Positions 2,351 through 50,047 of a stretch of DNA of 64,000 nt are shown one piece after another. Origin of the DNA: Owenia fusiformis. Lineage: Eukaryota > Annelida > Polychaeta > Sabellida > Oweniidae. Below the pieces are notes generated by a model. It saw nothing but the letters and a program-made list of their open reading frames with translations. It was not told the origin of the DNA and made no database searches. The first letter of the stretch is position 1, and every line of letters starts with the position of its first letter. The translations under genes and the position numbers were made by a program. The DNA is taken from positions 45,031,885 through 45,095,884 of the forward strand of contig CAIIXF020000001.1 of the NCBI GenBank assembly GCA_903813345.2. Direction: 5' to 3'.

Positions 2351-5300
2351 CTAAAGATCTGTTCCCTGGTTTACTTGTCCAGGAATATTTTCAGCACTGT
2401 TAAACACGTCATGTCCTATTGCCCTGGCCCTGTTCTTAGACTTTACTGCCCTTATACGTTCAGCATTAACTTTATTCCTCTCAAGGTCTTCATCGTTATG
2501 TTCGTTGATTACCTCCGTATTGGCATACTCTGATTCATTAGGAGGTTCAGCATATTCATTCTCAGTGTTATCTTTAACTTCAACCCAGTTTGTTTTAAGT
2601 GTAGTGTCATAGATGTTGTCATCTGGTTTCACTTCTTGTTTCGCTGGTGGGTTAACATAATTGGTGTTAAGTTCATAAACGTTGTGGGGTTGGGGATTCT
2701 GGTGATGTGGATTGTTGTTCTTGTATCCATTGATTGGACTGGGACCGTCATCAGTCAGTTTTCTACCACCACTAATTGAAGAAACAAGTTCAGAGATGCT
2801 TACTCAGAAGATTCTCAACCATAGGAGTTCTGTGAACTTTTACATCGGCTATGATTAGCAGGTTTTAATTTAAACAGTGCAAAATATCGATTCACTCTCA
2901 ATCTTGTTCATTTAAAGATTTATGACAAAAGTATTCAAAATATTTATTCCAAAATCTAATTACAGAGATATCTACATGTAAATGATAGTCACTTTAGATA
3001 AATTGCTTTCAGTATTTTTGTGTTATTCTTACCGTGATTTCTTCAAAGCTCGATGGCAGACAAAGGCGCCAAAGATACAAGTAAAGATCAACAATGCCCC
3101 AGCAAGGGACAAGGCTATGACAACGCCAACATCCAAACCGCTGTACGTTCCCGAATCATCATCTCCAGACTCAGCGGGTCCTGGTTCAGAGGTAGGCCAA
3201 TTATTAAATTGATCTTCGGTTGTAGTTTCTGGCTCAGGGGTCGGTGGTTCAGTGGTTGGTTTCTTTGTGGTAGTAGGCACAGTGGTCGTCGTGGTAGTGG
3301 TAGACGTTGTAGTAGGAGCTTCAGTTGTGGTTGTTTCTTCAGGCATCACAATCTGGCAGAGATAGTTCCTAGGCTGATCACAAGGAGTTATCTGCCACAT
3401 ATACCGGCCCTCGTTTTCCACCATTGCTACACATTGGTCTGTAGATACGTTGGGATGGTTTTCTGACCAGTGGAACTCCATTACAGGATCACCTTCAAAG
3501 AATACAAGCTGTAGTAGGTTCATATTATCATTTTATTATGTCACCACCGCAAGTGATGACATTGTTATACTCCAACTCTTCAACTTTTTTGGGGACGGTG
3601 TTCGGCGTTCGGATTTCGCCTTCTGTAAAAAATGGCTGGAGGTAACATTTTACATGTTATCCAAGGCCTTGTTTCATTTATTGTAACGTGAATTCAATGC
3701 TAAAATTTCAATAGCTCAAGGCACACTCGACTTTACCTGTACTCCATTGCCAGCGTGTTTTTACCAAATTAATCCAGTATTTTTCTCTATCACCAATACG
3801 AGATCGTAATCGTTGTTTAAGATCATCTTGAAATTGTTCTGATTCGATTTCTAAAAGATTGCCCATCTTTGACTGGCATGCATTAGTAGCTTCAAACCAG
3901 GAACGTTTCTCTGTGGAAAGAGTAACGCAGCTACTGTTTATAAAGATTCCATCCATTCCCCTACAGTCTTCCTCACTCCGATCTATAACATATCATATAC
4001 GTTGATTAGATATTGAAATATTATTCATTTTCGACACATTTTGAAAATAAATAATTCTCCATTGGGATTTTAGTGTCACTCTCAAAATGTCCTTTCTTGA
4101 CTGTGAATGATGGATTAGGTGTGGTCACCATACAAAACAATCGTGAGCCCGAGTGAGATACCACATTTGGAAGGGACACGAATTACACTAAAGAGTACGA
4201 GATTAAAGCAACATGATATATTTTGTAATCATGAATAAATTGAACTTGAAGGCTATTTCCTCTGAAGCTAGTGATGCTTAATTATGTGTATTGACATTTA
4301 CCTATGTCGCAGAGATAATAAAATGACATTGTGCATGTCTCATCAAACCAAATCCCTTCTCTATTAGTAGCTGCACAGTCCTGGTGGTTTTTGTAGTTGT
4401 TTGGCTGGGTCTCTGCCCATGATGTGAACAAACCTATTAGCAAGTAAAATATACAAATGCATGCAAATACTTAGTCTATGTATTCCTACATTCTGTTGAT
4501 ACACTGAAAGGTTCAGATCAGTCATGAACGTCCAACCGTGTGACAAAAACATGAAATCAGAAGAGGGGCGCCCTCATATTTCGACCTCTTAACGTTTATA
4601 ATAGATACTATATCTAGTAGAAGTATACAAATGAAAGGTGTTAACACTTCGCAAATATGATATTCCCTTTCATATTCGATAAGATTTTCCTGCAGTACTC
4701 AAATACAGGGGTGTATGATTATTAACTGTACGAACCACCAATGGCCAGAACTGTATTTTTCCAACTATCCCCGCATAACCTATCCCCCTGTCCGGAGCAT
4801 GGTGTGGCACACCATTCCTCCCTGCTCTCGGGAACACCATACTTGTTGAAGCTATTTCCACACCAACATTCTCGTCCAGCCTAGAATATTAAAAATCAGC
4901 ATAGTACGTATTAGGGCATAGAAAGAAAATGATTCTTGGATTGATAGAAAGATGATATAGTTAATGTTATGGTCACGCTATGTTGGAGTATTGTTTGTTT
5001 GTGGCGTTATCAAGCTCATCGTGTTATTTGTATGGTCACGCTATGTTGGAGTATTGTTTGTTTGTGACGTTATCAAGCTCATCGTGTTATTTGTATGGTC
5101 AAGCTATGTTGGAGTATTGTCTGTTTGTGACGTTATCAAGCTCATCGTGTTATTTGTATCGTCAAGCTATGTTGGAGTATTGTCTGTTTGTGGCGTTATC
5201 AAACTCATCTTGTTATTTTTAGGGTCATGCTGTGTTGGAGTGTTGTTTGCTTGTGGCGTTTTCAAGCTCGTCGTGTTATTTGTATGGTCACGCTATGATA

Positions 5301-7068
5301 AAGTATTGTTTGTTTGTGGCGTTATCAAGCTCATCGTGTTATTTGTATGGTCACGCTATGTTGGAGTATTGTTTGTTTGTGGCGTTATCAAGCTCATCGT
5401 GTTATTTGTATGGTCACGCTATGTCGGAGTATTGTTTGTTTGTGGCGTTATCAAGCTCATCGTGTTATTTGTATGGTCAAGCTATGTTTGTATGGAGAAG
5501 CTACGTTGGAGTATTGTTTGTTTGTGGCGTTATCAAGCTCATCGTGTTATTTGTATGGTCACGCTATGTTGGAGTATTGTTTGTTTGTGGCGTTATCAAG
5601 CTCATCGTGTTATTTGTATGGTCAAGCTATGTTTGTATGGAGAAGCTACGTTGGAGTATTGTTTGTAATGGCGTTAATAATCAAACTCGTCGTGTACGCT
5701 GTATTTGTATATTTTTAATAAAGTTATCAATATGCATCCTTTTTATGATTAGTCTTTTGTCTCGCCTAAAGCCTTACCTGTAGACCTGCGAATTTGTATG
5801 TGCTGCATTGGTCAATACAATAGTCATATGTGAGGTTCCCTGCGTTACTTAGCGCGCGTTCTTCGAAATCTCTTGTTTCAAAGTCCAAGTAACAGCCCTG
5901 TTCCAGAATAGGAGCTCCTAATAAAAAATATACAATTGATCATGAAATAATCCAGCTAAATATTACCGACAAATAAAAGTATACAATGCTATTTTCCAGC
6001 AATCTCACTCTTGATTTTCCACGCTTCCGTATATCATTCTGTGAATGTCAAAATAGTTATGTGATTTTACAACATCACTTTTAATTCTTGTTAGGGTTGA
6101 AGTGAATGCATTGTATTGGGATATAACCTTGGAAAACATTTCGTGAATATGTATTATATTCCCGCGAGCGTTTAGACCAAAATATAGCAAAATAACATTT
6201 AATAGAATAACCGGTTATACGGAAACAAATCCCCTGCATTCCAAATTAATTTTCTTAACGGGGTGTCTAGTACCAGCGTTCACATATTATTAGAAATCAT
6301 GACGAGGGGGGCATTTTTGGTTGCTTTGCCATCCGCAACGATGGAGGCATGGTGGAAAGGAAAATGATTTTCTTGAGATAAATCTAGAGTATACTTACCA
6401 CTTAGCCAATGCCAATGTGAAGCTGTTTGGTTTGCTCCAATCCAAATGTCATCCATGCTTTCTTTCCTTAAAGCGTTAACAAAGAAGTCATTTCTGTGGG
6501 CATCGCTGAGAACTGGTAGTTCTCCGCCTTTCTTACCACAATCTTCCCCAGCTTTAGACCATGAGGCCGGACTGTCTGATTTGAGGTAACATACTCTGTC
6601 CTCATTGTCTATGATTGAGGCATCGTCGCATAGGCTCTCTTGTTTCAAATTATAAAAATTGTAATCAATGAATATTTTGTGTGCATGGACAAAAACTCAC
6701 CATTCACCATTTACATAGGGGTCCCGGAGGTAAGACTCCCAAATGGGGCATAATTTTAATTTCCCATTTATCAAATAATACACAGATATGTTACATGCTC
6801 CTTTGTATCCCAGCCAGTTAAACAATGCTTTAACACAGGAAAATTTGACGAGACCGTCTTCCTTCCACCGCGTGACAATCTCAGCGATATCGGTTCACTT
6901 TACATGACTTAACATGTCCTTCATTGTATGACACTCGAAATAATTATTTTACTCTTTTAATGAAATTATTATATAAAGTAAGGTTAACATACCTGCAGAG
7001 CAATGTCCCGAACTATACAATAATAGCGCAATATTTATTAGCACCAATATCCAAGATGTAATATCCAT
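2351..7068 (-). CDS. CLW-1: transmembrane receptor, CTLD with nested WSC, second CTLD, mucin stalk
   Basis: Eight exons: 6993-7068, 6399-6638, 5778-5917, 4739-4880 (the donor could be 3 bases further), 4302-4433, 3737-3982, 3033-3492, 2351-2771; 1857 nt, 618 aa. Residues 1-25 are a signal peptide (MDITSWILVLINIALLLYSS). Residues 26-105 are the N-terminal CTLD half (DDIWIGAN, WHWLSG). Residues 106-199 are a WSC domain (ILEQGCYLD, YKFAGLQ, ECWCGNSFNKYG, RLCGD). Residues 199-243 are the C-terminal CTLD half (TQPNNY, IWFDETC, YYLCD). A second CTLD follows (244-378; KYWINL, WQWSTG, HPN, YMWQITPC), then a Thr/Pro-rich stalk, a TM helix near 446-471 and a 147-aa tail with tyrosines in YKN, YVN and YAN contexts. 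All ectodomain introns are phase 1 except the one inside WSC (phase 0). Function is inferred as a surface lectin-like receptor; the ligand is unknown. Confidence 0.85.
3533..3660 (+). repeat. Small dispersed repeat, copy 1 (TTATTATGTCACCAC family)
   Basis: Begins TTATTATGTCACCAC, then GTTATACTCCAACT, GGTGTTCGGCGTTCGG and TTCTGTAAAAAATGGC. It matches the reversed segment near 7975-8130. Located in the CLW-1 intron between 3492 and 3737. Confidence 0.55.
4965..5700. repeat. 63-bp minisatellite, about 11-12 units
   Basis: The unit contains GGTCACGCTATGTTGGAGTA and GGCGTTATCAAGCTCATCGT. Starts at 4969, 5032, 5095 and so on give an exact 63-base period. Because 63 is a multiple of three and the unit has no stops, all three plus-strand frames stay open. 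It lies in the CLW-1 intron between the two WSC exons. Confidence 0.9.
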
Positions 7069-8444: not shown

Positions 8445-11400
8445 CTAATCATTATGATCGTTAACCCTATACACGTAATCATTATCAACTGCAATGTGTG
8501 TATCCTGGTCATCACTGGCATATGTATCATCTCTTTCTGCAGATCCTGCTTCATCAACTGAACTGCCGTGAGAGGAGACAGTATCACAAGCTGATATATC
8601 TGTCGACATGTCAAACATTCCTCTAGCTTGAGATTCGTTCGAAGAATTTTTATCAAATGCAGTGTTTTTCCAGCTCCTATTTTTATCAACGGGGTATGAA
8701 TATTTGTTTTGGGAAGCATGATCTTCATGTGTTTCGTTGTTCTTTGATTGCAGTATCTCGTTTTCATTGTTTTCATGTATTGCACTATTGACATGTTTAC
8801 TTTGTGCTAGTTTCATATCATCATTAATTATTGCCTTACCATCATTATTATTACTCTCATCTTTGTCACTTGTGATATTAATTTCAGTATCGCCTTTATT
8901 GTTGATAACGTTATTGTGGTCTTTATTTTCTTTGTTGTTTGAAGGTAAATCTAGGACACCTTGTAACACTGAATCTAAAGTGATAGATGGGTATGACTCT
9001 TCGTCATATTCAAACGCATTGTTTTCGTATTGAATAGAGTCTTTGTCTAGTGTTTTAATCTCGTCATCTTTGTCATCAATAAAATCATCTTTCTGAGTGT
9101 TTGTTGTTCCCATTATTCTGCTGTTAATTTCAACGTTTATTTCTGTTTGATTTCTTTCGTGTGGGTCTCCATCTATCGTTTCGTCATCTGAATCTTTATA
9201 AGCTACTGCAATGTTCTCTAACTCCATATCCTCATCAATATTGTCTCTGGAGTTTGTCTTACTTGATCTGCTTAGTATACTGCTTACTTTTCTCGTCTTA
9301 CTCTTGGAGTGTTTCCTCATTTGAACTTTGTGTTGTTCTATATTGTCTCCATCTTGTGTAGATGTGACTGTCACCCCATCTATTGCATGAACTCCATTTT
9401 GTTCGATATCTCCATTTGCATTGCCAGTTGATTTCATGTTGCTTTCATGTCTGAAATGATAAAAATTCTAGTCTTAACTTCTTCTATTGGGTTTTGTTTT
9501 TAAGTTTTTCAAGTACAAATCGTTGGTAGTTTTCAATTAATGGGCTATATTTGTTTAAATTGTCTACTCACGATTGCTTCCGTCGACCACAACAGTACGC
9601 CATAACAGCCGCAACTATCAACAACAAAAACGTCCCCACAACGGCAATCACAATGATGACACCTGTAAAATACATTTAAAACAAGTTTGAACTATAGTTT
9701 GGAGTGTTTTCTTGCTCTTTGCAATACTCTTTGATCTTTTCACTTACCACTTTAATAAACACTTTAAATAATCGTTCAATGCTACATAACATCTGAGACT
9801 AAATACTTCTGTATTGTATCTAGTATCCAGAACTTACTACTTTTGAGGAGATCGGTCACTCGAGATTTTATCTGAATGAATAGATCAAAATCTTCGAGTT
9901 TGTTCAATCCCTTGTTTATGACTAGTTATACTTTTCAATGTCTTTTTCTGTCTTTAATTGTTGTACTTGAAAGGTTTTCTCCAGGACCGTCAAGAGATAA
10001 CTTCGTCATTTTCAGAAAGCCTCTCTATAACTATAACCTTTTCTTGGGGCTGTCCAGTTGGCCGAGAGGGCTTTAGCGCCAGCACGTTCAGGCTAGGCGA
10101 TTGGGCGCCGTAACCACGAGGTTGCGAGTTCGAGACGTCTGTGCTCCTTGTGTTTTTTTCATTTAGGGTTGAGATGATATATTATCAAAGGATGTCAGTA
10201 AAAGCTAATGCCATACTTACTCAATGGGACGGGTACATCAGAGCCATGAAGAGGTCCTACATTAATCCCAGTGTTGTTGCCATTACCCACAATCGTGTCT
10301 GTTGTGCTAGAACCCAACATTACAGTTGGATTTGATATCATACTGCTTGTGACATTTTCACTGTGTACACTCCTTGTCTGTCCACTACTGGTATTAGATA
10401 CAGGGGACGTGTTTTCTAAATCTCCTGAAATATTCGTCGTTTTGTCATATGTTCTCGAGGTTGTCATGCCTTGTGTTGTCGTTGAGCTTCTAGTCGTCAT
10501 TTTTGCTGTAGTTTCAGTAATTGACTCCGATGGAGTATTATTAGATACATTTAAAGATGGTGTTGAAGTCGGATACGTAGTTTGATTCCTAAATAGTGTC
10601 GTTTCCCCTAGATGTTCTGAGCTTGTTTTGTTTGAAATACTTTGTGTTGTTTGTAATATAGTTTCTGTTGCACTGGATGATGTTGTATTTGGAGTAACAC
10701 CAGACGCTATTGTGCTGGGCACAGTTGTTGCATCAGGTAATGCTGTTGTATTTGGGAGTAGAGTTACATTGGGGGATACTGCTGTATTAGACGATACTGT
10801 TGTATACCGTGGAACTGATGAAGCTGGCCCAATACTTGAATTGTATGACATCGTAGCGTTTGGTGAAATAGTTGCATTGGATATTGCTGTTATGGTTGCC
10901 ATTGTTGTACTTTCCGATATTGTCATATTCGGCGTTATAGTTACATTAGACGACATTGTCGTTTTCGGTGAAACAGTTGCATTGGACATTAAAGTATGTG
11001 TTGCTATTGTTGTACTTTCCGATATTAACGAAACATTTGGCGCAAAACTAGTTCCATTAGATGACATTGTCGTTGGGTTTATTGTTGTTAGACTAGGAAT
11101 TCGAATATCACAAACAATGTTCGAGGTATCTGTACACAGTGCATCTCTCCATAAATATTCACCATTGTTCTCTATAAGCTGAACACACAAACCATTCCTC
11201 TCATCAGGCTCACCCTCGGCCCATTTACTGAACGTTACTTTCTGACCTGGAATACACAAATCAAAGTATGCACACTTTGTCTTTTATCTGATAGGACCAT
11301 CAGCTACATCTACATCTGTATTCTGTATATACAGGGTGGTAAAAAAAATGGAAACCCTGTCACCATTTTCCTCATATCTTTGTTATTTTAGGGAATTACT

Positions 11401-14400
11401 CCCTGATATTTAGCGCATTTGTACATCATTTAATTTCCTACCGGCCTACTATATTTCATGACCATCAAATTGATAGTCACAATGTTACAGCACTTTAAAA
11501 CAACATGCTCCATTGGCCAATATTGCTCTTTCGGCAAACCTGCACCTATCATCCAAAATGTCCCTACCTAACTTCAACCTGTGGTGATAAACCAAAAAAG
11601 AGTGTACGAGAATAGGACAACTGCAGACCTCAAAAAGCAGATCATCCATGTCATTCAGGCCATACCTGCTGAAAAATGTAGTCAGATCATTGACAACCTG
11701 TTCAGATTTGCCAATAGCGCGATGGTGGCCACACTGGGGTATCTTGTTCAAAGTGCTGTGACTATCAATCTGATGGTCATGAAATATGGTTGGCTGGTAG
11801 GAAATTGAATGTTGCTGTCAAATTTCAGGGAATAATCACCCAAAATGACGAAGATATGAGGAACATGCAGGGTTTCCATTTTTTTGACCACCCTGTACAA
11901 AATATTTTGAGATATTGTCGTTGTGATAAATGGTGTTGTTAGTTTGAAATCTTCTTTTGTTAAAAGTTAGTGACACGAGTTACAGGTAAGCGAGGGAATG
12001 TAAAAAGCTCATTTCAACATAATACCGACTGTTCACAATGATATAGTTCGAGTTTTTAAAATCGTACCGTCCCTAAGAAGCCAATCTCCCTTGAATAATC
12101 CTATCCAATATTTGTTCTTGGGGAAATTATTTTCATTAATGATTTGTGTAATATGTTGTTGAACCATTGCACTATGTACAGTGACCAGATCTCCTCCAGT
12201 TTCTATGCAGTCAGATCTGGCATCATACCAACTTCTTGCCTCAACTGATATGAAGTAGCAGTTGTCTTCCATTGGGTATTCCACCCCGTAACATGATGGA
12301 TCTCTCTCTGAAATACATTTATATAATCATTAAATGTCTTTCATGTTTTCTGTTTCACAGTTTCACGTAAACACATAGTGGTCTGTCAGATTGTTGTTGT
12401 TTTGATTGGCCACTCGTGTCAACGACTTAGATAGTATTTAAAAACACATGATGGATTTCTTTCCGAAATATATTTCAAATAATATTACTCATTCAATGTG
12501 TTGATGTTCTCTCTTTGTTTTCTGTTTCTCATTTTCACGTAAACACATTATTTTGTCTACATCAGTTTTTTGTTGTTGTTTTGATTGGGCACTGGTGTCA
12601 ACGACTTAAAAAGTTATTTAAAAAACATGAGTGTATTGCCCACTGATCTACTGCTACTGCATCGCAATATAATACACAGCAATAAAGTATTACCCCTTCT
12701 GCAGATATATGGCAGTTTTGTATTACATCTCTCATCGTTCCATGCGTAGCCGTATTCTCTGAACGCCTCCAAGTCATCAATGGCTCCACATGCCTGGTAA
12801 CCGTCATAGTTGTTTGGCTGGGACGCTGCCCAGTTACTGTACATACCTAAGATAGGAGATGAGTGAGGGATGTACTTTTTTGCGTCTATAAATGAGAACG
12901 AGCCGCGTGTGAAGGTGGTTTATTCGATCTTTCATGTTTTTGTCACGTTTGATTATTCGTTTGAATGTTTGGTTTGGTTCATTATGTTGTATAACTCGTT
13001 CGTTGGTAGTGGTTTTCAATGTTTCCGTTTTCTGAGTGTTTGAACATTTGAGCTTTTCATTTGGCTTTTATGCTTACATATTTAATCTGGATATATTAAA
13101 GCGATGCTCATTAACAAGAAGAAATCATATACTCTCCTTTTAGGTCAGAATTTTAAGGCAACAAGACTAATTTTTTAGATCTTAAAGGACCGCGGGTTGT
13201 TTGTAGAATGAATCTGGGGAGCTTTTCCATGCATTTCGGTTGTGTTTTTCTCTTTGAGGTTGTGAATTCTCTCTTTGAGGAATTTCCCATAGTAATCCAA
13301 TGGTATAAGCTTAGTTCCAAGCTGATTCTTACACATCTTATTGGGTTGTTTTGGTTTAGATCACAAGCCAATGAGGTGTGTATTAATGATTAACTTTCCA
13401 GTTATCTCAAAATCTGCTTACTAATCATACAATTGGATTACTATGGGAAATTCCCCAAAGAGAAAATTCTTGGGAATAAGGAAGGGGTACCATTTACACA
13501 ATTTGAGAAATTATTGGCAAACATGAAACCTATTTAAAACAGCATTAATATTATTCAAAAGGGATCGTAATAATGATTCCCAGCCCTCTGAAGTTTGAAA
13601 AAGAACAATACCTGGGTGTTAATCCATAGATAATCCTTGAAAATGAGAAATATTTTTTAGGATTATATGGTGCAATCTTATAGTCAATAAAATGTTTTGA
13701 AGTGTATTGATGTTTTTTAGATGAAAAACACAAGCGAAATGCATGAAAAAGCTCCCCAGATTCATTCCACTAACAACTCGTGGTCCTTTGATTTTAATGT
13801 TTGACCGTCTAAATATGATAAACGCATCATACCATCTACAGCGATAACTTGGTTTAAATACTTTCCACCACACGTTTCTGTTTCATCTCCGGCACATGGC
13901 AGATCACATTTAGGATCAGTTGGTGATGGTGGACCAATTCTTTCAAAATCAAAGTTATCACTGCAATAACAGTCTTTGCCTCCCTGTAGTCCTGCGAACA
14001 ATGAGCCGACTTGTCGACATGTATTAACACACGTGGTTCTTGTCATGCCATGGAAGTCATCGATAATCAGTGTCATTGTTCGATCGTTTCGGTTGTCCCA
14101 AAAACAACCTTGTTCTTCAATGATTCCACTCCCTGAGATCAGAATGAGTAGGGGATATGATACAATATAAACAAATTCTTCTACTTCCAGCTTTACACTA
14201 CAATATCCCATGTGGTTTTGCATAAAATGGAGAATAAAAAGATGAAGAATAAAAGATCAGCTTCAAATAGAAGGAAGTTTCAACATTATCTGACAACACA
14301 GAAAGATGATAGTTTGTGATACATACCTGCCGCCCATTGCCATGGCGTTTTCGTTTCTTTGACTCCCAACCACACGTTGTCCCATCCATTGCTCGTAAGT

Positions 14401-17400
14401 ATTTGTCCCAGCGCAGCAGTGTCATTGTCATCCATAGGCACTGTCATATCACCATGTACTACGATGCTATTACATAGGAGACTTGCATAATGCCACGTTC
14501 CAGTTGTTTCGGGGTTGAAGTACCCCTTTGTTTCATCATATTGATGTTTTACTATATTGTCCCATGTGGGCTTGTGTAGTTGGCACACCAATGGTTGAGT
14601 AGTATTACATAATGTGTCATACCATGCATATGTATTGTCCTGTTGGTGCTGAACTATAGCACACGGCTCTGCTGAATTGCTTGGCTCTTTGGGGGCCCAT
14701 TTAGTGTACATTACTTCACCTGAAATGTAAAAAAACGTTTAACCATTTAACCTGACGTCCATTCATTTTGTTATTTATGACTCTTACAATTTCGATTTCA
14801 ACAGTCGTCCAATAATCAATAAGTAAACTATTAAGAGACGAGAAATGAAGCAATTTTCGGGATATGCATTGTGTCTCATTATTACTCAAAGAATACTATT
14901 TTGTTGTTAATAAATAGACCCACCGTTCGATTTTCTTGACCATTTGCTTCTAACTAGGCCAATCCAGTACTTGAATTTATCAAAATTCTCATTTAATAAA
15001 GTCTTCAGGATGATCTGCTCTTCTGGGGAATCGATCGTCACAAGGTATCCATCTCTTTTAATACATTCATAGTGTGATTCAAACCAGCTGAACAGTCCAG
15101 CAGAGACATAGTAACAGTTGTCCGCTCGTTTAAAGTAGCCATCTTCCGAGCAGTTTGAATTAGCTAAAATTATTATTTTATTACTTCTTTTCACTAATTA
15201 ACATGGTCACTTACAACTACATGTTGATAATTGCAGATACTTTTTGAAATCATGCAGCAATACTATTCGCGTTTTTTTATAAATGAGACTACAAAAAGGT
15301 TTAATGCAATGCAAACGACAGAAAGTTAATTAATGATAACTTCATTTAATTCTCCTGCAAACCTTGACTTTCCTGATGATTTTGAGCACTCACCTGTTTG
15401 GCATATATATCCAAGTTTCTCTATGCATGCCTCGTCATTCCAGTTATAGTCGTAGTACCGCCACCACTCCAAGTCGTCCATTGCCGCACATGCCTGGTAA
15501 CCATTGTAATTATTCGGCTGACCACTGGCCCACGATCTGTACATTCCTAATTTGCAATCAAAATTAATTTCATTCGAGGCATTTGTAACAGGTGTTGATT
15601 AATGAAAATATATGATGCAAAGTTGAAATTCTGTCTACTTGGTACCAGTGTAACTCATCTCGTGATAGCTCAGTTGGTAGAGCGGGGGACTGTAGCGTCT
15701 AAACCTGTTATCCCTAGGTCACTGGTTCGACTCCGGTTCGCGAGAGAGATTCTGTTTTAAATGTCTCTTCCTTTTATTATCTTTCATTGTATTCAAAATC
15801 CATATATCAACTCATGTAGTTGTTTTCAATTAACTCATCTCGTGATAGCTCAGTTGGTAGAGCGGGGGACTGTAGCGTCTATACCTGTCATCCCTAGGTC
15901 ACTGGTTCGACTCCGGTTCGCGAGAGAGCACCCTTTTTTAAATGTCTCTTCCGTTTATTATCTTTCATTGTATTCAAAATCCATATATCAACTCATGTAG
16001 TTGACCCCACGTAACTCATCTCATGATAGCTCAGTTGGTAGAGCGGGGGACTGTAGCGTATAAACCTGTTATCCCTAGGTCACTGGTTCGACTCCGGTTC
16101 GCGAGAGAGATTATGTATTAGATGTCTCTTCCGTTTATTATCTTTCATTGTATTCAAAATCCATATATCAACTCGTGTAGTTGATCCCACGTAACTCATC
16201 TCGTGATAGCTCAGTTGGTAGAGCGGGGGACTGTAGCGTCTATACCTGTCATCCCTAGGTCACTGGTTCGACTCCGGTTCGCGAGAGAGCACCCTTTTTT
16301 AAATGTCTCTTCCGTTTATTATCTTTCATTGTATTCAAAATCCATATATCAACTCATGTAGTTGATCCCACGTAACTCATCTCGTGATAGCTCAGTTGGT
16401 AGAGCGGGGGACTGTAGCGTCTAAACCTGTTATCCCTAGGTCACTGGTTCGACTCCGGTTCGCGAGAGAGATTATGTTTTAGATGTCTCTTCCGTCTATT
16501 ATCTCTCATTATATTCAAAATCCATATATCAACTCATGTAGTTGATTTTAATTAACTCATCTCGTGATAGCTCAGTTGGTAGAGCGGGGGACTGTAGCGC
16601 CTAAACCTGTTATCCCTAGGTCACTGGTTCGACTCCGGTTCGCGAGAGAGATTATGTTTTAGATGTCTCTTCCGTTTATTATCTCTCATTGTCATTCAAA
16701 ATCCATATATCAACTCATGTAGTTGATTTTAATTAACTCATCTCGTGATAGCTCAGTTGGTAGAGCGGGGGACTGTAGCGTCTATACCTGTCATCCCTAG
16801 GTCACTGGTTCGACTCCGGTTCGCGAGAGAGATCTGTTTTAAATGTCTCTTCCGTTTATTATCTCTCATTGTATTCAAAATCCATATATCAACTCATGTA
16901 GTTGATCCCAAGTAACTCATCTCCTGACAGCTCAGTTGCAAGAGCGGGGTACTGTAGCGTCCAAACCTGTTATCCCTAGGTGTCTGGTTCGACTCCGGCT
17001 CGCGGGTGAAAGATTATTTTAAACATTTGTTAGACGTTAAATATTTACTGTCATGAATGCTCGTCCAGAATAAAACTTTCATAATCAATGGTAGATAAAC
17101 TCATATCGTGATAGCTCAGTTGGTGGAGCGGGGAACTATAGTGTCTAAACCTGTCATCTCAAGGTCATTGGTTTGACTCCTGTTCGCAAGAGAGGTTTTT
17201 TAATGTTCCTTTAGAATGGAAACTTTCATAATTCATAAACAATTAAGTCATGATATTAATTTGATCACTAGTTCGACTCCGGTTCGCGATATAGGCATAT
17301 TTTCAAGTTTTTAGTTTAATCATTGAGAGTGAAATTCTCCTGAGACAATAGCTTTTGGTTTTATACAACGTTCTGTTAAAGACTATTGTAAATTAAATAA

Positions 17401-18938
17401 TATACATTTATGTTCAATCAATGAAAACCATCAATGTTTACTAGTACTCGATGTTTGATTAGGGACATACTTATGGGGTGGACTTCTGTATTTACCTGAT
17501 CCATTTATCCATCCCCAGTCCAGGCTCCTTTCCTGTATCATCAGCCATGTTGACTGAACTTTAAAGTTGGCTAATGCCTCCTCGAGATTCGTTTCCTGGT
17601 AAGGTGAGGTAACATCAGGAATGTATCCGAAGCTGTTGTAGCACACTTCAGCCGCACGTTGCCGGGTAACTGTAGTGTTTATGTGCATGAACACTGACCA
17701 ACCTTTCTGGACGATGGATGCTGCTTTAACAATAAGATGGTGTTGCTATATCAATAAGTAAGAGCAAAATCTGATGGGCATTGAGACAAGATATGTCCAG
17801 TGAACAATTTGTTGAGCTCTTTCTTGTTATTTTAAGACATTTTGTTGACCTCCAAAAAGAAAATACTAATATTTGTCCTGATGATTCCCATTTGGTTATC
17901 ACTTGAGCAATAACACACTTTGTGAATTGCATTGAGTGCATGATGGTCTCAGGTGCAAGTAGCATACCTTAGCTTACTATATAAGTATTGCCTAGGATGA
18001 CTAGATGAATGTACAAATAAGCGTGATTTTCATCATTAATCATATTCAAAAGTTAGTCAGTGTGATATCATTTTTGTTTGTACATGAAAAATTGAAAACA
18101 TCAAAATATATTGAGATTACAAATTTTCGATTTATTTCTCTTCAGGTAAATGACAGTTTACCTGAAGCTTGTGAAAATAAACTAGAATATAGTCCCCAAG
18201 AAGTAGAAGACCTGACATTTTTTCTGCTTTAATAGTTGAAAATTATCTGAAAATAATTAGACTAAAATAATTTTCTTCCTGAACACGCGTTATTATAAAA
18301 ATGGACTTGGAAAATGGCGACACAAATACGCGAATATATTTTAAGTTTTGTGCTAGAATCCAAACCAGACTTTGAAATGTAAAGGAATTCAATGAATTCA
18401 TCGACACTATCATCTATTAATATGAAGGATGTGTGGAATCCATTTCAAGAACTATTCCAACACTCTCTATTCTTACATTTGAATCAGATGTAAGGTATAT
18501 TTGTTCAGGATTACCTCGTATAAAACAAGTGCTAACCACCTTGTAAGTCTTGTATAGCAGTATACCATGTTGCATGTGCAGGGTATATGCAGTGTATACA
18601 AGTTCTATAGACTATTGAAGTTTTTATGAAAATCCTTCAGACTGAGCTATTTGATGTGACTGTTTGCATATTAAGTATGAAGAGCGCTTCAAGGCCATGT
18701 TTATGCCATGTAGCCTACTAAAAATATATTCAATGTTATGATAACAACCCAAGGCATATTTTACGTGCACGAACATTTAACTCCATATGCATTAGCTTCA
18801 CTTCCTAGTAAATGAAATATGTCTTATATGAATATATTCACTTGAGTTAAACAGATACATATACTTGCTATACCCACCTTGACATGTGTAGGAAATGAAG
18901 ATCATAAATAAAATACTGTTGATGATCATCCTTGTCAT
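8445..18938 (-). CDS. CLW-2: giant four-CTLD receptor with one nested WSC, long glycosylated stalk and long tail
   Basis: Eleven exons: 18878-18938, 17496-17723, 15394-15546, 14924-15163, 14327-14719, 13833-14132, 12694-12846, 12068-12307, 10221-11246, 9572-9662, 8445-9450; 3891 nt, 1296 aa. Signal peptide (MTRMIINSILFMIFISYT). CTLD1 is 21-147 (WLMIQ, WGWING; QPNNYNG, NWNDEAC). CTLD2 is 148-about 275 (YWIGLVRSKW; EPSN, AWYDTLC). CTLD3 N-half (VWLGVKETKTPWQWAAG) is fused in the same exon as the CTLD2 C-half. WSC is 359-458 in one exon (EEQGCFWD, LFAGLQGGKDCYC, TCGGKY). CTLD3 C-half has QPNNYDG and AWNDERC. CTLD4 is 510-about 640 (YWIGLFKGDW; GEPDERN). A stalk of about 290 residues, rich in Asn-x-Thr/Ser, precedes a TM helix (932-956) and a 335-aa Asp/Asn-rich tail containing QYENN and DYVYRV. 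Stop codon 8445-8447. The two halves look like duplicated units. Whether all exons belong to one transcript needs RNA evidence. Confidence 0.75.
10046..10160 (+). repeat. tRNA-derived sequence, probably a SINE head or tRNA pseudogene
   Basis: A box A-like TTGGCCGAGAGG and a box B-like GAGTTCGAGAC are spaced as in Ser/Leu-type tRNAs. The flanks do not form a clean acceptor stem, and the stretch ends in a TG/T-rich tail. It lies in the CLW-2 intron between the stalk and TM exons. Confidence 0.45.
11331..11896. mobile_element. Tc1/mariner-type relic with long terminal inverted repeats
   Basis: The ends read TACAGGGTGGT and ACCACCCTGTA, with TA at both borders as expected for a TA target duplication. 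The inverted arms run about 190 bases (ATGGAAACCCTG, CTCATATCTT and TTTCATGACCATCA recur in both). Between them lies an out-of-context fragment (RTTADLKKQIIHVIQAI) resembling the C-terminal end of mariner-like transposases. It is too short to be active. It sits in the CLW-2 intron 11246-12068. Confidence 0.7.
12349..12640. repeat. Tandem duplication of about 180 bp in CLW-2 intron
   Basis: TTTCACGTAAACACAT, TTGTTGTTTTGATTGG and GTGTCAACGACTTA occur twice in the same order, about 180 bases apart, between the exons at 12307 and 12694. Confidence 0.6.
13184..13790. mobile_element. TIR element of about 600 bp, non-autonomous
   Basis: The two ends form an inverted repeat of about 70 bases: AAAGGACCGCGGGTTGTTTG and GAATGAATCTGGGGAGCTTT on the left recur reversed near 13720-13790. 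No coding capacity. Its right end is 43 bases from the splice donor of the WSC exon of CLW-2. Confidence 0.7.
15659..15745 (+). tRNA. tRNA-Tyr(GTA) with 14-nt intron, array copy 1
   Basis: Acceptor stem CTCGTGA pairs with TCGCGAG. D-arm GCTCAGTTGGTAGAGC, anticodon stem GGGGA/TCCCT, loop CTGTAG then intron then A, T-arm ACTGGTTCGACTCCGGT. The 14-nt intron CGTCTAAACCTGTT sits after base 37, the canonical eukaryotic position. A T-run follows as a Pol III terminator. Confidence 0.9.
15839..15925 (+). tRNA. tRNA-Tyr(GTA) with intron, array copy 2
   Basis: Mature sequence as copy 1. The intron is the second variant, CGTCTATACCTGTC. It starts 180 bases after copy 1 and is followed by TTTTTT. Confidence 0.9.
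16020..16106 (+). tRNA. tRNA-Tyr(GTA) with intron, array copy 3
   Basis: The acceptor stem reads CTCATGA, which leaves an A-C mismatch at the fourth pair. Otherwise as copy 1. Intron CGTATAAACCTGTT. Function may be weakened. Confidence 0.8.
16200..16286 (+). tRNA. tRNA-Tyr(GTA) with intron, array copy 4
   Basis: Intact cloverleaf with the same mature sequence as copy 1, and the CGTCTATACCTGTC intron variant. The T6 run that follows and the downstream spacer match copy 2. Confidence 0.9.
16381..16467 (+). tRNA. tRNA-Tyr(GTA) with intron, array copy 5
   Basis: Intact cloverleaf. Intron CGTCTAAACCTGTT as in copy 1. A TTTT terminator follows. Confidence 0.9.
16561..16647 (+). tRNA. tRNA-Tyr(GTA) with intron, array copy 6
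   Basis: Intact cloverleaf. Intron CGCCTAAACCTGTT, one change from copy 5. The spacer upstream carries TTGATTTTAATTAACTCAT in place of the TCCCACG form. Confidence 0.9.
16742..16828 (+). tRNA. tRNA-Tyr(GTA) with intron, array copy 7
   Basis: Intact cloverleaf with intron CGTCTATACCTGTC. It is the last intact member of the array. Confidence 0.9.
16921..17006 (+). pseudogene. Decayed tRNA-Tyr, array copy 8
   Basis: Still recognisable (CTGTAG, intron CGTCCAAACCTGTT, GGTTCGACTCCGG), but with CTCCTGA at the 5' end against CTCGCGG at the 3' end, a changed D-loop (GTTGCAAGAGC) and a disrupted T-stem (TGTCTGG). Acceptor pairing is poor. Confidence 0.7.
17105..17191 (+). pseudogene. Decayed tRNA-Tyr, array copy 9, anticodon changed
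   Basis: The anticodon loop reads CTATAG instead of CTGTAG. The anticodon stem (GGGAA against TCTCA) and the T-arm (ATTGGTTTGACTCC) have decayed. The intron remnant TGTCTAAACCTGTC is still present. A lone T-arm fragment (GTTCGACTCCGGTTCGCGA) follows at about 17270-17290. Confidence 0.7.
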
Positions 18939-19756: not shown

Positions 19757-22700
19757 TTAAACACAATAATCATAAAGTTCTATTCTTCCATTCCGGCCGT
19801 TCATATTGTTACGATCATCACGTGGGTTTTGAATTCTCTTGCTAGAAACACTGTAAATACCCTCCTGAACAGCGTTGTCTTTACTTTCGCGCTCACGATC
19901 AGCAGCTGTCACCTTATTGTTCTTTTCCGTAGCATGCTTATAGCTTGTACTTCGAAGTACTTTACTTTTCGTCTTTACTTTGTTTTCGAGCTCCGCATAG
20001 AGAGCTTCAAGAGGGTCGGGCCGAATTTCAGAGGCAAAACTTGGATTCTCATATTCTTGTCGTTCGTTTGTATACTCTCGCTTTGGTTTGTTCCTAGATC
20101 GCGATCTCTTGTAACGATCGGTTGGTGTGTACACATCTGATGACTTATCATTGATAATATCTTCAGTGGATCCCTGAGTAGTTGATGGGGCACTTGTAGA
20201 GGGTGTACTCTTTCCATCTGAAATTGTAGCCACCGACTCAGATGTGGGGCTACCATTTTCTTTGTATTTCCTTGGGCTTAATTTCAGCGTCCTGTCCCAC
20301 AGTGATCGCATGATGGAACTGTTTCGCTCTAATTTCGGATCCTCAACATTAGCTTTGGCTTCTTCCTTGATTTCAAACCCAGTCATTGGAATTTCAGAAG
20401 TTTGTTTTCTGTAATAAACCAATTATGCTGTCACTGTATAATTACTCAAGCATTTATTCTTTAATATTCGCTTCTACACCTCTATCGAATTCAAGCTCGA
20501 TCTCAATCTAGCAGTTGCAACCTAACTGTGCTAAGACCAACAGTCACAACACAACAACATTACAACACTTTTTAAAACATTTATAAATGTAGTTAATTTC
20601 TAATTACATTTTTGGCCAAGATTTTACACAAGACATATTTAAAGATTCCCTTTAATGGGTACGAGCTACTCACTTTTTCCGCGTGATGCAGATCCCAATC
20701 AGCATTATTGGAATGATGAGCAAGAGCAATGCCGCAATGATCAACCCTACAAGAAACCCTGAAATATAAGTAGATATTTAGCCCATCCGTTCATTCGTTA
20801 GAGACTAGAGTCCTATCATAGAACCTTAGCAGCCCAAAGCACCATGCATGGTTCTATTTTAACCGACCATGTGGGTAACTTACCGATTTTCCTGACCTGG
20901 TCCTTGGAAGCCAATACTGGTTGCGTCAAGGGCCCGGTGCTATTGTCAGCTGAAATTAAAAATATATATTTCTTACACGCTTTTTCTATTCGTCATCTTT
21001 TTGGAAATCTTTCTAGCAATATTACGGAATGTTAGATGTAAAATGATTATGGCTATAGTTTTTTCTATGTCCCTCAATGATTTATTTCACTACCTACCTA
21101 TTTGGCAGATAAAGTATTTGGTTGAGTTACAGTCCTCGCTAAACCATTTGTTATTCTGGAGTCTGTTGAAACTAAGACATTCTTTCAAGGAGTTAGGCTC
21201 ATTAGTAGCCCAATTCTGGTAGTATCCCACCTCTATGTCTGTAAATACATTTTCTCAAATTCAAGAGACATTCTCTGAAAATATCGTTGTTATAATGTAC
21301 GTTATTATATACCTTGCACCAAAAGGCTAATAATATTGGCTAAAAGTATTGATGTTGACCCACCTTCTTTCCACGCCCAATGCCTGTTAGTAAGACCTAT
21401 CCAAAGCGAAACACCCCTCATAGCACTCCCAGACAGCCATGTCTTTATGACGTCCTGTTCCATTTCGTTGTCAATCGTCACCAAATCCCCATTCATCTGG
21501 AGGCACAATTGCCTCGATGTAAACCAAGACATCTTACGGACTTTTTCGTCCATCGTATAACAACTTCGCTCGTAGTATTTGCTTTTTGGTATAGCGTTGC
21601 ATTCTTCCTCAGAAATGTCTGTAAATATAATTGAGTATATGAATATGATGATTTATGCTTAAATTTTAAGTTAAGGATTGTTATGCAATGAATCTCGTCA
21701 TGATCAACACAGAGAACAAATAAAACTGATAGGAAACCAATAATTCTTTCGATGCACTCAACGTTTTCAGAACTTTACTATAGTAAAATATATGCAAATA
21801 CATACATTTAAATTTACCAAGTTCCGAACCGTTAACGTTAATGGAAATCAAAGACTTAAAGTGTACACGTGTCTTTAATGTCATTTTATGTAGTTTAAGG
21901 GCCGATACTCATACAGAGTTAATAAAATGAATCTGGCTTACATATTTCACAAATGTATCCATGGGCTTCAGTGCAGACCTCAGGGCTCCATTGATAGTGC
22001 AGATAACCAGCCCCTTTATTCATCACTCCACAGTTTCTTCCTCCTTCAGGGTCACGAGGTTCTTCTCCGTACCAATTGGAATATGCAAGACCTGTAAGGT
22101 TACGTACGGGGTATATGATATCATGAATTGTTAATGAATTATAAAATGTATATTCAAAACGAACATTAAAAATAATTCTCTCTAGTGAACTCCAGAGTTT
22201 TCATGTCATAAAAGCCTTGTTTAGTTCAAATATCAACGCAGTCCCCAGCTATAATAACTGAACTATCACGAAATTAGAGTTAGCAGTTAAAACTATTAAT
22301 CACATGAATTGATATAAGGATGGATTATAAATTGATTTCAAATTGAATACAATGAAAACATTTAACAGAATTAACAGGAATTTTCTCTCGCGAACCGGAG
22401 TCGAACCAGTGACCTAGGGATGACAGGTATAGACGGTACAGTCCCCCGCTCTACCAACTGAGCTATCACGAGATGAGTTACTTGAGCACAACTACATGAG
22501 TTGATATATGGATTTTGAATACAATGAGAGATAGTAAATGGAAGAGACATTTAAAAAAGGATGCTCTCTCGCGAACCGGAGTCGAACCAGTGACCTAGGG
22601 ATAACAGGTTTAGACGCTACAGTCCCCCGCTCTACCAACTGAGCTATCACGAGATGAGGTATCCTGATAACTTATTAAAACATTATATTCATATTAATAT

Positions 22701-33334: not shown

Positions 33335-33420
33335 AGTTCTGATACGGGATTTTGGCTGATACGGGATCCAATACGGGATCTGATACAGGACTTTGGCTGA
33401 TACGCGATCTGATACGGTTT
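33335..33420. repeat. Short tandem repeat of TGATACGGGAT type
   Basis: Six degenerate repeats of (C)TGATACGGGAT with TTTGGC interspersed. No coding role is apparent. Confidence 0.6.
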
Positions 33421-44258: not shown

Positions 44259-47200
44259 TTAAAACGACGTTAGAGTTTCATTAGTCCTCGGAGATCTGCT
44301 ATTACTTGGTCGTGCTTCGTCTGAATGCGTGTCAGAATTCGAATTTTCTAGATTATGTACACCAGAGTCTTTATCATCCGCGTGGTTATGTTGATTTATA
44401 TTAGTTCTTGCATAGTCAGGTTCATTGGTTTCATTTTCAACCATATAAGTCTCATATTTTGTATTTCCCTCATCAAACATAACACCAGGATTATCATGAC
44501 TATCATATGTCTTTTCACCTCTAGGTGCACCTGCTCCTGCGCTGTTTAAATAACGTCTCCTTCTCTCAATCCTGAGTTTGTCTCGCTTACGTTTTTTGAT
44601 ACAACAGATGCAGACGATGAGGCAGATGACGAGGAACACAAGAACTACTATTGCCACAATTACATAAATACCTGGAAAGAAAATTAATTTACATTTAGAT
44701 TTCAGTAGTTTATATTATCCTACACTTAGTGTGCTAAATGTATAATAACATCAAAAAATAAATTTGATATTTATTGGCAAAATGAATAACCGGAGGATAT
44801 CGTGATGATATACTCCGGGCGGAGGATATCGTGATGATATACTCCGTAAAACCCAATATGCGGAGGATATTGTGACGGTATACTCCCGCGGTGATTTCCC
44901 GCCAAATTGACTCTATTTCGCATGAAATTTATTTTGTAATGATATTATACATTTAGTACACTCCTTGTAAGTGTAGGATAATAAGAACATCCTATGTTTT
45001 TTCAGAATATCATTTTAATCTACTCGGTGATATTGATATATGCACTCGTTCGCTTTTTTTCTCGTGCAGATATCAATATCACCTCGTAGATAAAAATGAT
45101 ATTCCTCAAAATCATAGGATATCCTATAATTATCCATTTTTAATAAGCATGATATTGTTATTATGAACAAGGTAAAAATATACACTTTGTATATTAAAAA
45201 TATGTTGACCTACACAAACACATAGTACAAGTACTTTTATTGTGTTAAGAGCCATTGATAGATGGCATAACTATTAATGTTCATTTGAGTCTTGTAAAAT
45301 AATGAATCATCGTCGTGAATAAATATATATTTTGGATTTACATAAATATAATTAAAAAATAACGAGCATACCTTCGTTTTCCCAACTAAATGTTGTAATT
45401 CCACCAATAGGTGCATCAGTTTTACCGCTTCCAGCATCTGTTGTTGTATCTGTGCCGTCTCCACCATCTATTCCAGTTTGATTCTCTCCTTTTTGGGTTG
45501 CATCGGTTGTGACGGTGGTCGTTGGAGCTTGGGTTGATTCAATGGTTGTAATTTCTTCAGTTGTTGTCTTGATCGTGGTCAATGCTTCTGTTGTTGTATG
45601 AACTGTTGTAGGCTCAATTGTAGTCAATGCTTCTGTCGTGGTTTGAACTGTAGTAGGCTCAGTTGTGGTTGCTGCAGATGTGGTAGGCTCTGGAGTGGTA
45701 GTAGTTGTTGGTGGAGGAGAGGTTGTTGTGGTAGTAGTTGGAACGGGTGTGGTGGTGGTGGTTGTTGTGGTAGTAGTTGTAGTAGTCGTTGTGGTGGGCA
45801 TTACATATTCACATATATATTGGTCGACGCTCGTATCATCACACTTCCAATCAGACCACCCAGCTCGTCCTGCAGCAGCTCCGATCATCAAACAATTCTG
45901 ATCTGGCTTGTTTGGCTGATCACCCGGGAGATCCCAAAAAGTGTAGACAAAAGGCTCGCCTAATAGAAAAAAAGGTGAAAAATTAAGGTTGATAGTACTT
46001 TAGGCGTAATACAACGATGTATTTAGTTTAAGTATATGTGGGAACTGATACATGAATGTATTTTTCCTATGTGTACATTGACAACACTAACCTCCAACCC
46101 AGTTCCATTTTGTATTCATTGCTCCAATCCAAAATCGCCTCAGAGATGGATATTCATTTGTATAATTCGACATTTTTGTTTGAAGAGAAATTTGTCTCTC
46201 TTCTGAGTCTATTACAGCCAAATCACCTCCCATCTCAATACAGCTCTGTCTCGCCTGGAACCATGTCACCTTTGTCATCTCGTCACTCATATAGTAGCAC
46301 ACATCGAGGTTGGTATCATAGAAATGTTGAGGGTTGTTCTCGTCACACGTTGAACCAGCTATCAGCAAATAAATTCAAAATTGATTTATATTGGTCTATC
46401 ACAAACATTTTCCATCATGACAAATAGGTAATAACTACCACAATTGTTCGTTATATGGATAGACTTAGCGCACACAAGATTGCGTTCAGCAGTTCCTTCG
46501 ATCCCTTTAGGGTTGTTTTTTGTTAAATAATTCATTTTTATTAACTCACTTGATACAAAAATAACATGGCAGAATCTGGTTGGTAATGAATAAATAATAT
46601 ATTTACTAGGTGGAAATTGTACCTTTTTGACAAATGAAGCTGTTATTCTTATAGCAGAACTCATCATTCCACTCGTTATTCTCCACTAGAATTGTGGCAC
46701 AAGTTTCATAGTAGTTATCGTTACTTGGTTCGTCAGGCTTCAACCAATTGGAATATCCACCTAAAATGAGATCACATATTTTACATGTGGCGCAATTGCA
46801 TTATTTTTTCACTTTTCTTTTCAAATCTCCAATATGTTCTAGGTTGTATAATGTTGTACGCGATGCCATCTATTCTATTTGCTATTTAATGACAAATTGA
46901 TTTGATTATAACTACCGATCGCGATGATAGCCCATTGATAATGGTTGATATTGAATAACGACGAATACGTCATTGTTGGTTCTATATCGACACACAGAAG
47001 AGGTTTTATCCTTATTTCTTATGCAAGAAAACAATCCATAGCTAGCTAGAAACACATGTACACCCACCTCCGACTTTATACACTGAACATCCTTCAAGAC
47101 CTCCACATATACGAGTTGCGTCACCAGCACACGGCGAGGTACAGCCGTCGTAGCTCTGGATGTTACCATATGAATTACCACACCAACAGTCTGTACCATT

Positions 47201-50047
47201 CTGTAACACACATTACGGAGAACATTATTGGCCAATCAATCGGTTTGCGTGTTGATTCGTAACTTAATATTGTGATTGTATTTTAGTAAATGGATTTGGC
47301 AATAGCAGTGCTGTTAAAATGGATGCTATTTTGTAGCGCTAAGCATAGAATATCTAGAAATGTTCAAAATGGATATAAACTTTCATCGGAATTAACACAT
47401 TTTTATCTCAACTAACAACTTGCAGCTTGAATGTTATTTTAATCTGATAAACGAACAAGGGATAAAGACAGCTGTGCAGGTTTTTCAAATATCAGCATTG
47501 ATTTTTTAATTCGTTGAAACATGTTCAATACGAATTTTCAGTTGGCGAATATGGTTTTATGTTGGTCATATTGACTTTCACCAGGGAAGTCCTATATGTG
47601 AAAGATGATATATCGCCTAGTTTCTATATTCCTTACAAAACCTCCCAATTATGATGTTATCAAGTTTGTTTTAGCTTTAAGCTAAATACATACTCAAACA
47701 CTTTCCTTGTGCAAATTTATATTTCTACACAAATCGTGTAAACTATCACCATAGACAGATTACACTCCAAGTTAAAATTCTAATTTTGGTTCACTGATAA
47801 GTTTTTGATTTGTTTGGGGGTTATCCACTTATTCACCAAAAGTACCCACGGCAGTGATCATGACGTTCATCGAGATTGTCTGTACCTACCTACACTAACC
47901 TTGTGATCTATATCTATACAAGTACACGAAATATATATATATTAATATGTGGAGAAGATGTGATCAATGTTTACCTGGACACCTGCATACTTGTAGTTCA
48001 GGCTTTCACATTCAATGATACATTTGTCCGGTGTAGAGTCTTCACGTCTATATACCATTTTTTCCAGATCTTTGTTCTCCTCTGTGTTTTTGAAGCATCC
48101 CTGGAGGCTCATGGACCTGGTATTTTCTGAAGTGAAAGATGTAATTTATCATTAAATTTTAAAAGACGAAATGCTGCTGTAATGCATACAAGAAGCTAAA
48201 TTAAATAGCATGAATTTCCAAGGCATGAAATAAGGGTTTCAAACTATTCTAAAGCGAGCAAAGAATTATTTCAATTTTCTAATTTTATTCATAGTTCAAA
48301 TACATTTTAAGATTCATCCAAACGTGAGTCAATGTATCACTATTCAGGAATGTCAGGTATCAATTCACAAATGTCATTTACATTTATAGGCCTAAAATAA
48401 TCTTTACCTAAGGATAGCTAGAGGCATTAATTAAAATACAAATATTTCCGTACTATTCGTGAATACCCTTCAATTGTACAAAAGACTCAATGTTTGTTCA
48501 ATACTCTTGACAAAAATGTGATTTTGTTAGTTTAATACTTCATCTGTCATTTTCTTATGATGCATCGCTGAGGTCCACCAACCTTCATTTCAAAGGCAGA
48601 CGGATTTGATAGTATGTAACTATTGGAATACTTCATTTGGTATTAGTTTTAATATGGTACAGAATATGGTATTTCAAAATGGCATCGCAATGTTTGCAAT
48701 AGTCTGCAATTTAGATGATGGACTGTTTGAATATGGGTTCTATATTTCAAAATCTTGCTACATACATGTACTCCCAACTACGTATCGATTCATTTCAAAA
48801 TTATGAACACAAATTATGAATAGGATATTGATTTTTTACAATAATTCAACATGGTCTGAAGACATTCTAAGATAAACACTCGCTGAAGGTGCAGATCGTG
48901 ATACGATGCTATCATCCTAGTTGCACCTTTACGCTAATCACTAGATTGTGTTCTATCAAGATACATCGAGATCAACATATTTTTTTAGTGAAGGTATCTA
49001 TGGCCATTATGACATTACTCAAAAAGTGTTACCATCTTTTTTAATAACCCTCTTTAATCTGACAAATATTACATGATATAATCATTAGTGCTTCCAAAAA
49101 ATAGTTTTTTAATCCTTAACTTGCATGTTTTACGAATAATGAAATATATGAGATACAGTGTATTCCCCTTAACAAATACACGCCTGTTATACATAATCCA
49201 ATTGCCTTAGCTTGGTATTGGGTTTTCATTTCCCCACACGGCCACACCCAAACGATATGTCGACTTTCTATTAGCAAATTGATTTTCATCCTAGAGCAGT
49301 TGCTCCTTCGTGACAGGAACAATAGCAATGATTAATCATGATAAAATAAATAATATGAAACCTTATTAGGAACTGTCAACTGTTAAACACGCATTACGTA
49401 AATATTGTTTTGTCCCCCCCCCCTTTTTAAACTGTAGATCTTATTTCGATATTGTCTGGAGATTTACATCAAGTTTGGCTTTACTTAATTTTTAAAAAAA
49501 GATCCGTGGATACATTTATATTTTGTATTACCTGAAACCCATCCCCAGTCCATTTTCTGTTCTTGCCCACCGATCCACGTCTTCCCGTTGATCCAGTTCC
49601 TCTGTTCAAGTTCATCAACTAGCTCATCTTGTATTGTCTGTGAGGTTATAGATGCTAGATGGCCATTAACGGCCACACATGCTTCTTCTGCCTCAGTCCA
49701 ACTCTTGCGATCATTTCTGAAGCCATAGCATGTCCTACCCAGCACACGGCCATCACAATCTGAAGAAAATTTGTCATTATAAAACATTTGTTATGTGACG
49801 ATGATCTTTTGTTATTCTAGTATTAACATCAATTATTATTTAAGTATATTATCAATTCTTTTCATGGTGAGAATTAACTCTATAAAATTATGATAAAAAT
49901 TGTGAATATTTTTATATGGATCGTTAAACAAGTACCGCCTTTATCTCAAAAATAATACTTTACATCAAATATTTCGGAACACTTACCTTGTCCATGTACT
50001 GCCTGTAAAATAGTATATATTATTCCAAATATTGTAATTTGTTTCAT
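44259..50047 (-). CDS. CLW-4: transmembrane receptor, CTLD with nested WSC, second CTLD, poly-Thr mucin stalk
   Basis: Eight exons: 49987-50047, 49532-49759, 47975-48126, 47068-47200, 46623-46760, 46092-46358, 45372-45959, 44259-44671; 1980 nt, 659 aa. Signal peptide is 1-20. CTLDa N-half is 21-96 (TWIGGQEQKMDWGWVSG). WSC is 97-191 (SLQGCFKN, YKYAGVQ, TDCWCGNSYGN, RICGGLEG). CTLDa C-half is 192-237 (DEPSNDN, EWNDEFC, FICQK). CTLDb is 238-378 (FWIGAMNTKWNWVGG; DQPNKPD, GWSDWKC, YICEY). The stalk is almost pure Thr/Pro with TTEALTTI repeats, as expected for dense O-glycosylation. TM is near 525-545 (IVVLVFLVICLIVCICC), followed by a very basic KKRKRDK stretch and a tail with RYLNS, KYETYMVE and DYARTN. 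It lies about 19 kb from the other three CLW genes, beyond ro and the Ly6 genes, on the same strand. Exon phases match CLW-1 exactly. Confidence 0.85.
44756..45137 (+). repeat. Dispersed palindrome-bearing repeat, copy B
   Basis: Same order of blocks as copy A, with the left border TTTATTGGCAAAATGAATAA. It lies in the CLW-4 intron between stalk and TM exons. Confidence 0.8.

Follow-up and report, generated by a model that had tools for sequence, protein, structure and literature searches.

Four tandem genes of the annelid Owenia fusiformis predicted to encode a WSC domain nested within a C-type lectin-like domain

A 64,000-nucleotide stretch of genomic DNA of the annelid Owenia fusiformis (contig CAIIXF020000001.1, positions 45,031,885 to 45,095,884; hereafter the window) raises the question of whether a WSC domain can be encoded inside a C-type lectin-like domain (CTLD) instead of beside it, as the original prediction proposed for four paralogous genes. 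The gene models were read from genomic sequence alone: exons were located by six-frame translation, splice sites were assigned by hand from the AG/GT context and the phase, and the joined exons were translated. Four related genes were delimited on the minus strand between positions 2351 and 50047, designated here A (50047-44259), B (25208-20670), C (18938-8445) and D (7068-2351). All four show the proposed order of CTLD N-half, WSC and CTLD C-half, with Pfam scores above the cut-offs. On these models the four genes encode a WSC domain nested in a CTLD, which is a statement about the encoded architecture.

The WSC domains of genes A, B, C and D reached 62.9, 56.7, 57.2 and 59.6 bits, respectively, with the Pfam WSC family (PF01822, cut-off 27.8). 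The CTLD halves, rejoined after removal of the WSC, reached 59.7 (A), 52.4 (B), 45.0 (CTLD3 of C) and 61.2 (D) bits with Lectin_C (PF00059, cut-off 22.6). Scanned singly, the halves of gene A gave complementary matches, the N-half to Lectin_C 2-59 and the C-half to 68-107; the claim that neither half is complete by itself stands for gene A, to which the separate scan was confined. These scores, together with the identical order and phases in the four genes, exclude chance. When the window was scanned with local profiles of its ten CTLDs, N- and C-halves were seen to alternate along it, and four of the ten N-to-C gaps contain a WSC; profiles derived from these same exons show order and are not an independent detection. 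Because of this alternation, no C-half has another partner close by. Two stray 9-bit matches (28962, plus strand; 30740, minus strand) were taken as noise. The Pfam scan covered the extracellular parts apart from the stalks of genes A, C and D, and excluded the tails; Lectin_C and WSC were the only families above cut-off, besides Chordopox_A33R on a CTLD of gene D. The latter match lies on the CTLD2 N-half (3737-3982; 26.9 bits, cut-off 22.5) and probably reflects a common CTLD-like fold.

Gene A is read as a single open frame of 659 amino acids plus stop, all seven of its introns being GT-AG, and encodes a signal peptide, the CTLD N-half, the WSC, the CTLD C-half, a second CTLD (CTLD2), a Thr-rich stalk, a membrane helix and a tail (Table 1). 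Genes B and D present the same order, gene B without the long stalk. The predicted layout of two CTLDs with the WSC in the first fits A, B and D and fails for gene C, which has four CTLDs, the WSC splitting CTLD3. In this gene the CTLD2 C-half and the CTLD3 N-half share one exon, and the WSC is encoded by one exon, versus two in A, B and D. Its CTLD1 is split in the same manner, but the intron there is 1.9 kb long and gave no WSC match with the local profiles. The signal-peptide exons of C and D are candidates from a heuristic scan, and the tail junctions of both genes are approximate.

In the four genes the WSC cassette starts and ends in phase 1, and in A, B and D a phase-0 intron interrupts it. 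Six CTLDs of the cluster are free of WSC (CTLD2 of A, B and D; CTLDs 1, 2 and 4 of C), and their N- and C-half exons adjoin without a WSC, as had been proposed, with a phase-1 split whose position agrees to within about two residues. For fish CTLD genes, a passage of PMC514892 reports an intron 'downstream of the WIGL motif'. Gene structure, phase, cysteines and WSC-free CTLDs are all consistent with a WSC inserted, as suggested, where the long loop of the CTLD begins. We consider it quite probable that one WSC cassette was inserted into a CTLD intron, that tandem duplication followed, and that the genes encode nested single-pass type I receptors. A cassette with phase-1 ends would have entered, once, a phase-1 intron that splits a CTLD just past the W-x-W end of its N-half, and the gene with the nested WSC would then have duplicated in tandem. 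The product would be a single-pass type I surface protein with the WSC within its first CTLD (the third in gene C), placed in the N-terminal part of the long loop, about 10 residues ahead of the calcium/sugar motif.

A possible, if doubtful, alternative is that the WSC is a cassette exon, or exon pair, present in only some mRNAs, the skipped form being an ordinary tandem-CTLD receptor. Skipping would keep the frame, since the cassette ends are both phase 1 in all four genes; in addition, the CTLD matches Lectin_C well once rejoined, and CTLD1 of gene C would represent a natural WSC-free version. However, the phase symmetry is not special to the WSC, because the CTLD halves are likewise phase 1-1. 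Cassette skipping is hypothetical, and for the WSC-included form it agrees with the nested architecture.

By convention, the canonical cysteines of a CTLD are named C1 to C4 and pair C1-C4 and C2-C3, its tryptophan motif is named W-I-G, and its calcium/sugar motif is EPN or QPD, plus WND. In the four genes C1 lies before the WSC and C2, C3 and C4 lie after it, all of them invariant, and W-x-G is present in each. Genes B, C and D share 28-31% identity with A, with several tryptophans invariant over both CTLD halves. The predicted QPN/EPN-type loop and WND-like motif vary among the genes, reading EPS...WND in A, QPN...WND in C, QPN...WFD in D and EPR...WSP in B, the product of which may not bind sugar through calcium. 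All eight WSC cysteines are also invariant in the four genes, in the spacing of yeast Wsc1, from which the eight-cysteine pattern was taken (as given in a passage of PMC9024836), and the CGG motif of the WSC is present in A and C, with CGQ in its place in B and CGD in D. The absence of EPN/WND-type residues from gene B, and the lowest score (45.0 bits) of the rejoined CTLD3 of gene C, would fit a scenario in which the WSC broke the CTLD and the halves are mere spacers around a working WSC, with no single lectin fold. The four canonical cysteines and several tryptophans, kept over both halves in all four genes at this level of identity, argue against such a scenario, which we regard as improbable.

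In a 31-row tree, the nested WSC domains formed one clade (support 98/95.7) against 27 other WSC domains of the genome. The rows were chosen with a window-derived profile, those with a second-half score below 20 bits or fewer than 38 residues were excluded, and nine of them fill less than half of the columns. Since the nested WSC domains form a single clade, one insertion followed by tandem duplication appears likely. In the tree of the ten CTLDs, CTLD1 of gene C pairs with CTLD3 (80/81) and CTLD2 with CTLD4 (80/74), so that a two-CTLD unit seems to have been doubled within gene C; the simplest reading is that its first unit is without WSC through loss.

Several observations weigh against this history and its product. 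Gene B is without the canonical calcium/sugar residues, and CTLD1 of gene C indicates that a CTLD of the cluster persists WSC-free. The WSC-bearing CTLDs are not grouped in the best CTLD tree (supports 60-81), their grouping not being rejected (p-AU 0.465). The WSC tree has long branches, in addition to its window-profile choice of rows and its exclusion of weak ones, and two of its rows, both from locus L023, carry an identical first half. Finally, a splice-phase scan of other WSC genes detected a phase-0 inner acceptor only in L011, L013, L015, L024 and L025, and few donors. Independent, repeated insertions into the same intron would explain the one-exon WSC of gene C versus two exons elsewhere, as well as its absence from CTLD1 of that gene; intron loss in gene C also accounts for the one-exon WSC, the single clade speaks against repetition, and we judge this course very unlikely. 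An artefact of misassembly, or of interleaved exons of separate genes, is barely credible even though the evidence is genomic DNA only, given that order, strand and phases are alike in four genes and that the open frame of gene A runs 659 amino acids from signal peptide to tail.

Table 1. Exons and predicted features of the four lectin genes in the window.
Gene	Feature	Position	Strand	Remark
A	Signal-peptide exon, ends in phase 1	49987..50047	-	
A	CTLD1 N-half exon	49532..49759	-	Lectin_C 2-59
A	WSC exon 1, phase 1 in, phase 0 out	47975..48126	-	
A	WSC exon 2, phase 0 in, phase 1 out	47068..47200	-	
A	CTLD1 C-half exon	46623..46760	-	Lectin_C 68-107
A	CTLD2 N-half exon, no WSC after	46092..46358	-	
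A	CTLD2 C-half and Thr-rich stalk	45372..45959	-	
A	Transmembrane helix and cytoplasmic tail up to stop	44259..44671	-	
B	Signal-peptide exon	25154..25208	-	
B	CTLD1 N-half exon	24421..24648	-	
B	WSC exon 1	23597..23739	-	
B	WSC exon 2	23015..23174	-	
B	CTLD1 C-half exon	21942..22091	-	
B	CTLD2 N-half exon	21364..21618	-	
B	CTLD2 C-half exon	21098..21238	-	
B	Juxtamembrane exon (20949-20884) and membrane-helix exon (20758 to first stop)	20670..20949	-	End counted from translation
C	Candidate signal-peptide exon	18878..18938	-	Heuristic scan
C	CTLD1 N-half exon, start approximate	17496..17720	-	
C	CTLD1 C-half exon, no WSC found in preceding intron	15394..15546	-	
C	CTLD2 N-half exon	14924..15163	-	
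C	Fused exon, CTLD2 C-half and CTLD3 N-half	14327..14719	-	
C	WSC, one exon, both ends phase 1	13833..14132	-	
C	CTLD3 C-half exon	12694..12846	-	
C	CTLD4 N-half exon	12068..12307	-	
C	CTLD4 C-half and Ser/Thr-rich stalk, 3' splice end approximate	10195..11246	-	
C	Membrane helix	9616..9675	-	
C	Probable cytoplasmic tail	8445..9467	-	Open frame, approximate junction
D	Candidate signal-peptide exon	6993..7068	-	Heuristic scan
D	CTLD1 N-half exon, start approximate	6399..6638	-	
D	WSC exon 1	5778..5917	-	
D	WSC exon 2, donor 4739 or 4736	4739..4880	-	
D	CTLD1 C-half exon	4302..4433	-	
D	CTLD2 N-half exon	3737..3982	-	
D	CTLD2 C-half, Thr-rich stalk and membrane helix	3033..3492	-	
D	Probable cytoplasmic tail	2351..2803	-	Open frame, approximate acceptor

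The host genome (498 Mb, 525 contigs) contains 61 WSC matches, four in the window and 57 outside. No further nested WSC was found among the 32 of these 57 outside places whose sequence was read, flanking DNA of up to about 5 kb included. Analysis of 28 regions (L009-L036) with the local CTLD profiles, which are fitted to the window and could overlook distant CTLDs, gave clear matches only in L024 and L028; single 9-bit matches in L031 and L018, the latter on the opposite strand, were taken as noise. Both L024 and L028 resemble the window genes in that a WSC is lined up with several CTLDs at a single locus, probably in one gene, but there the WSC lies ahead of the CTLD N part and then the C part, side by side and not nested. 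A same-strand Lectin_C match within 20 kb was detected at five of the 57 outside places (L024, L028 and three unread ones), as judged from 148 scored matches (150 of 565 candidates scored). For the WSC places on contigs C1 (54.9 Mb) and C10 (12.3 Mb), those CTLD exons that were scored within 20 kb have their starts at 2, 37, 49 or 50. At a place on contig C3, the nearby CTLD exons are one of 67-107, cut like a nested C-half and 9.9 kb upstream of the WSC, and one of 53-107 at 8.4 kb downstream. None of these three places shows an N-half before and a C-half after the WSC among the scored exons within 20 kb; nesting may still occur at the C3 place. A comparison of the gene D protein with the genome (114 matches; 116 of 157 candidates scored) recovered the order N-half, WSC, C-half in the window only, and none of 11 checked half-CTLD matches outside it flanks a WSC within 20 kb. 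A separate feature of locus L023 (5652-6732) is a series of eight tandem copies of a truncated second WSC exon, about 134 bp apart, ahead of a complete one.

Among known systems, polycystin-1 (PKD1) also combines WSC and CTLD in one surface protein, according to passages of PMC5318412 and PMC1934368, but as adjacent domains of a very large multi-pass protein, whereas the WSC here lies inside the CTLD of a small single-pass one. The adjacency stated in the original prediction is borne out by zebrafish Pkd1a, for which a passage of PMC5318412 places the WSC at 201-273 and the lectin domain at 454-551; for sea-urchin REJ relatives, a passage of PMC1934368 assigns CTLD and WSC to different proteins. 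The polycystin-1 layout, with WSC and CTLD side by side and PKD, REJ and PLAT domains, is not that of the scanned parts of our proteins, in which the WSC is nested. The mannose receptor/PLA2R/DEC-205 family shares with them tandem CTLDs and a type I membrane topology, and its members were the top PDB sequence matches when the rejoined CTLDs of genes A and D were compared. In this family, ricin and FN2 domains precede 8-10 CTLDs, and a WSC is not known; the scanned extracellular parts of our proteins contain no ricin or FN2 domain, and two or four CTLDs, and depart from the mannose-receptor layout. Kremen and yeast Wsc1 share a WSC with eight cysteines, which differs in being an independent domain there, and for the gene A WSC no solved relatives other than Kremen1 and Wsc1 were found at E 0.001.

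In a PDB profile search the best 60 of 254 matched sequences were CTLD proteins, none of which, to our knowledge, carries a WSC. A homologue search with the four-protein alignment returned two matches among 1588 candidates, both with WSC, one fungal and one from Tara, and no match among these candidates was named as animal; a homologue search with the gene C WSC gave no matches. The claim that no family with a WSC nested in a CTLD has been described agrees with the literature covered, as none was found in open-access full text among the matches listed, most subscription journals being outside its scope.

The window holds other features besides the lectin exons. The introns of genes B and C contain tRNA genes (15650-17004, 22386-22653 and 24240-24326), counted as 10 by Rfam and 9 by ARAGORN with mixed names, which look like intron-bearing tRNA-Tyr. 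Seven of them form a 180-bp tandem array inside the intron that splits CTLD1 of gene C, and the 180-bp unit recurs as an array on contig C2 at 33.65 Mb. The gene D intron between the WSC exons carries a 63-bp tandem array (4968-5488; 8.3 copies, 92%). Between genes A and B (37989-43275) there are minus-strand open frames, some of them Ly6-like in cysteine spacing, and four frames scanned from 43275-40357 had no Pfam match. A plus-strand open frame at 917-1273 matches BRCT_2 (36.4 bits) and is perhaps part of a neighbouring gene.

As to function, CTLDs are known to be most variable in their long loop. The WSC would lie near the calcium/sugar site, because its entry point is about 10 residues before the EPN-type motif, as judged by alignment and the general structure of CTLDs. 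The WSC of yeast Wsc1 has a PAN/Apple fold with antiparallel strands in the order b1-b5-b3-b4-b2 (a passage of PMC9024836), and from this strand order we infer that the two ends of the domain lie close together, as an insert requires. The CTLD would fold around the WSC, closed by the C1-C4 disulfide. WSC domains are reported as glucan or protein binders in the same source, and in our proteins the WSC would probably add to or gate the CTLD binding face, giving a composite glycan/ligand receptor. That the WSC acts as a switchable lid, the in-frame cassette at the base of the long loop being spliced in or out to alter the ligands of the lectin so that one gene would yield both a plain and a composite sugar receptor, is a speculative and rather unlikely extension. 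Insertion of the entire, disulfide-rich WSC through a resident intron would show exon shuffling building a new domain inside a lectin fold while leaving the fold intact, and the cluster offers nested and un-nested CTLDs for comparing the effect of a loop insert on ligand binding.

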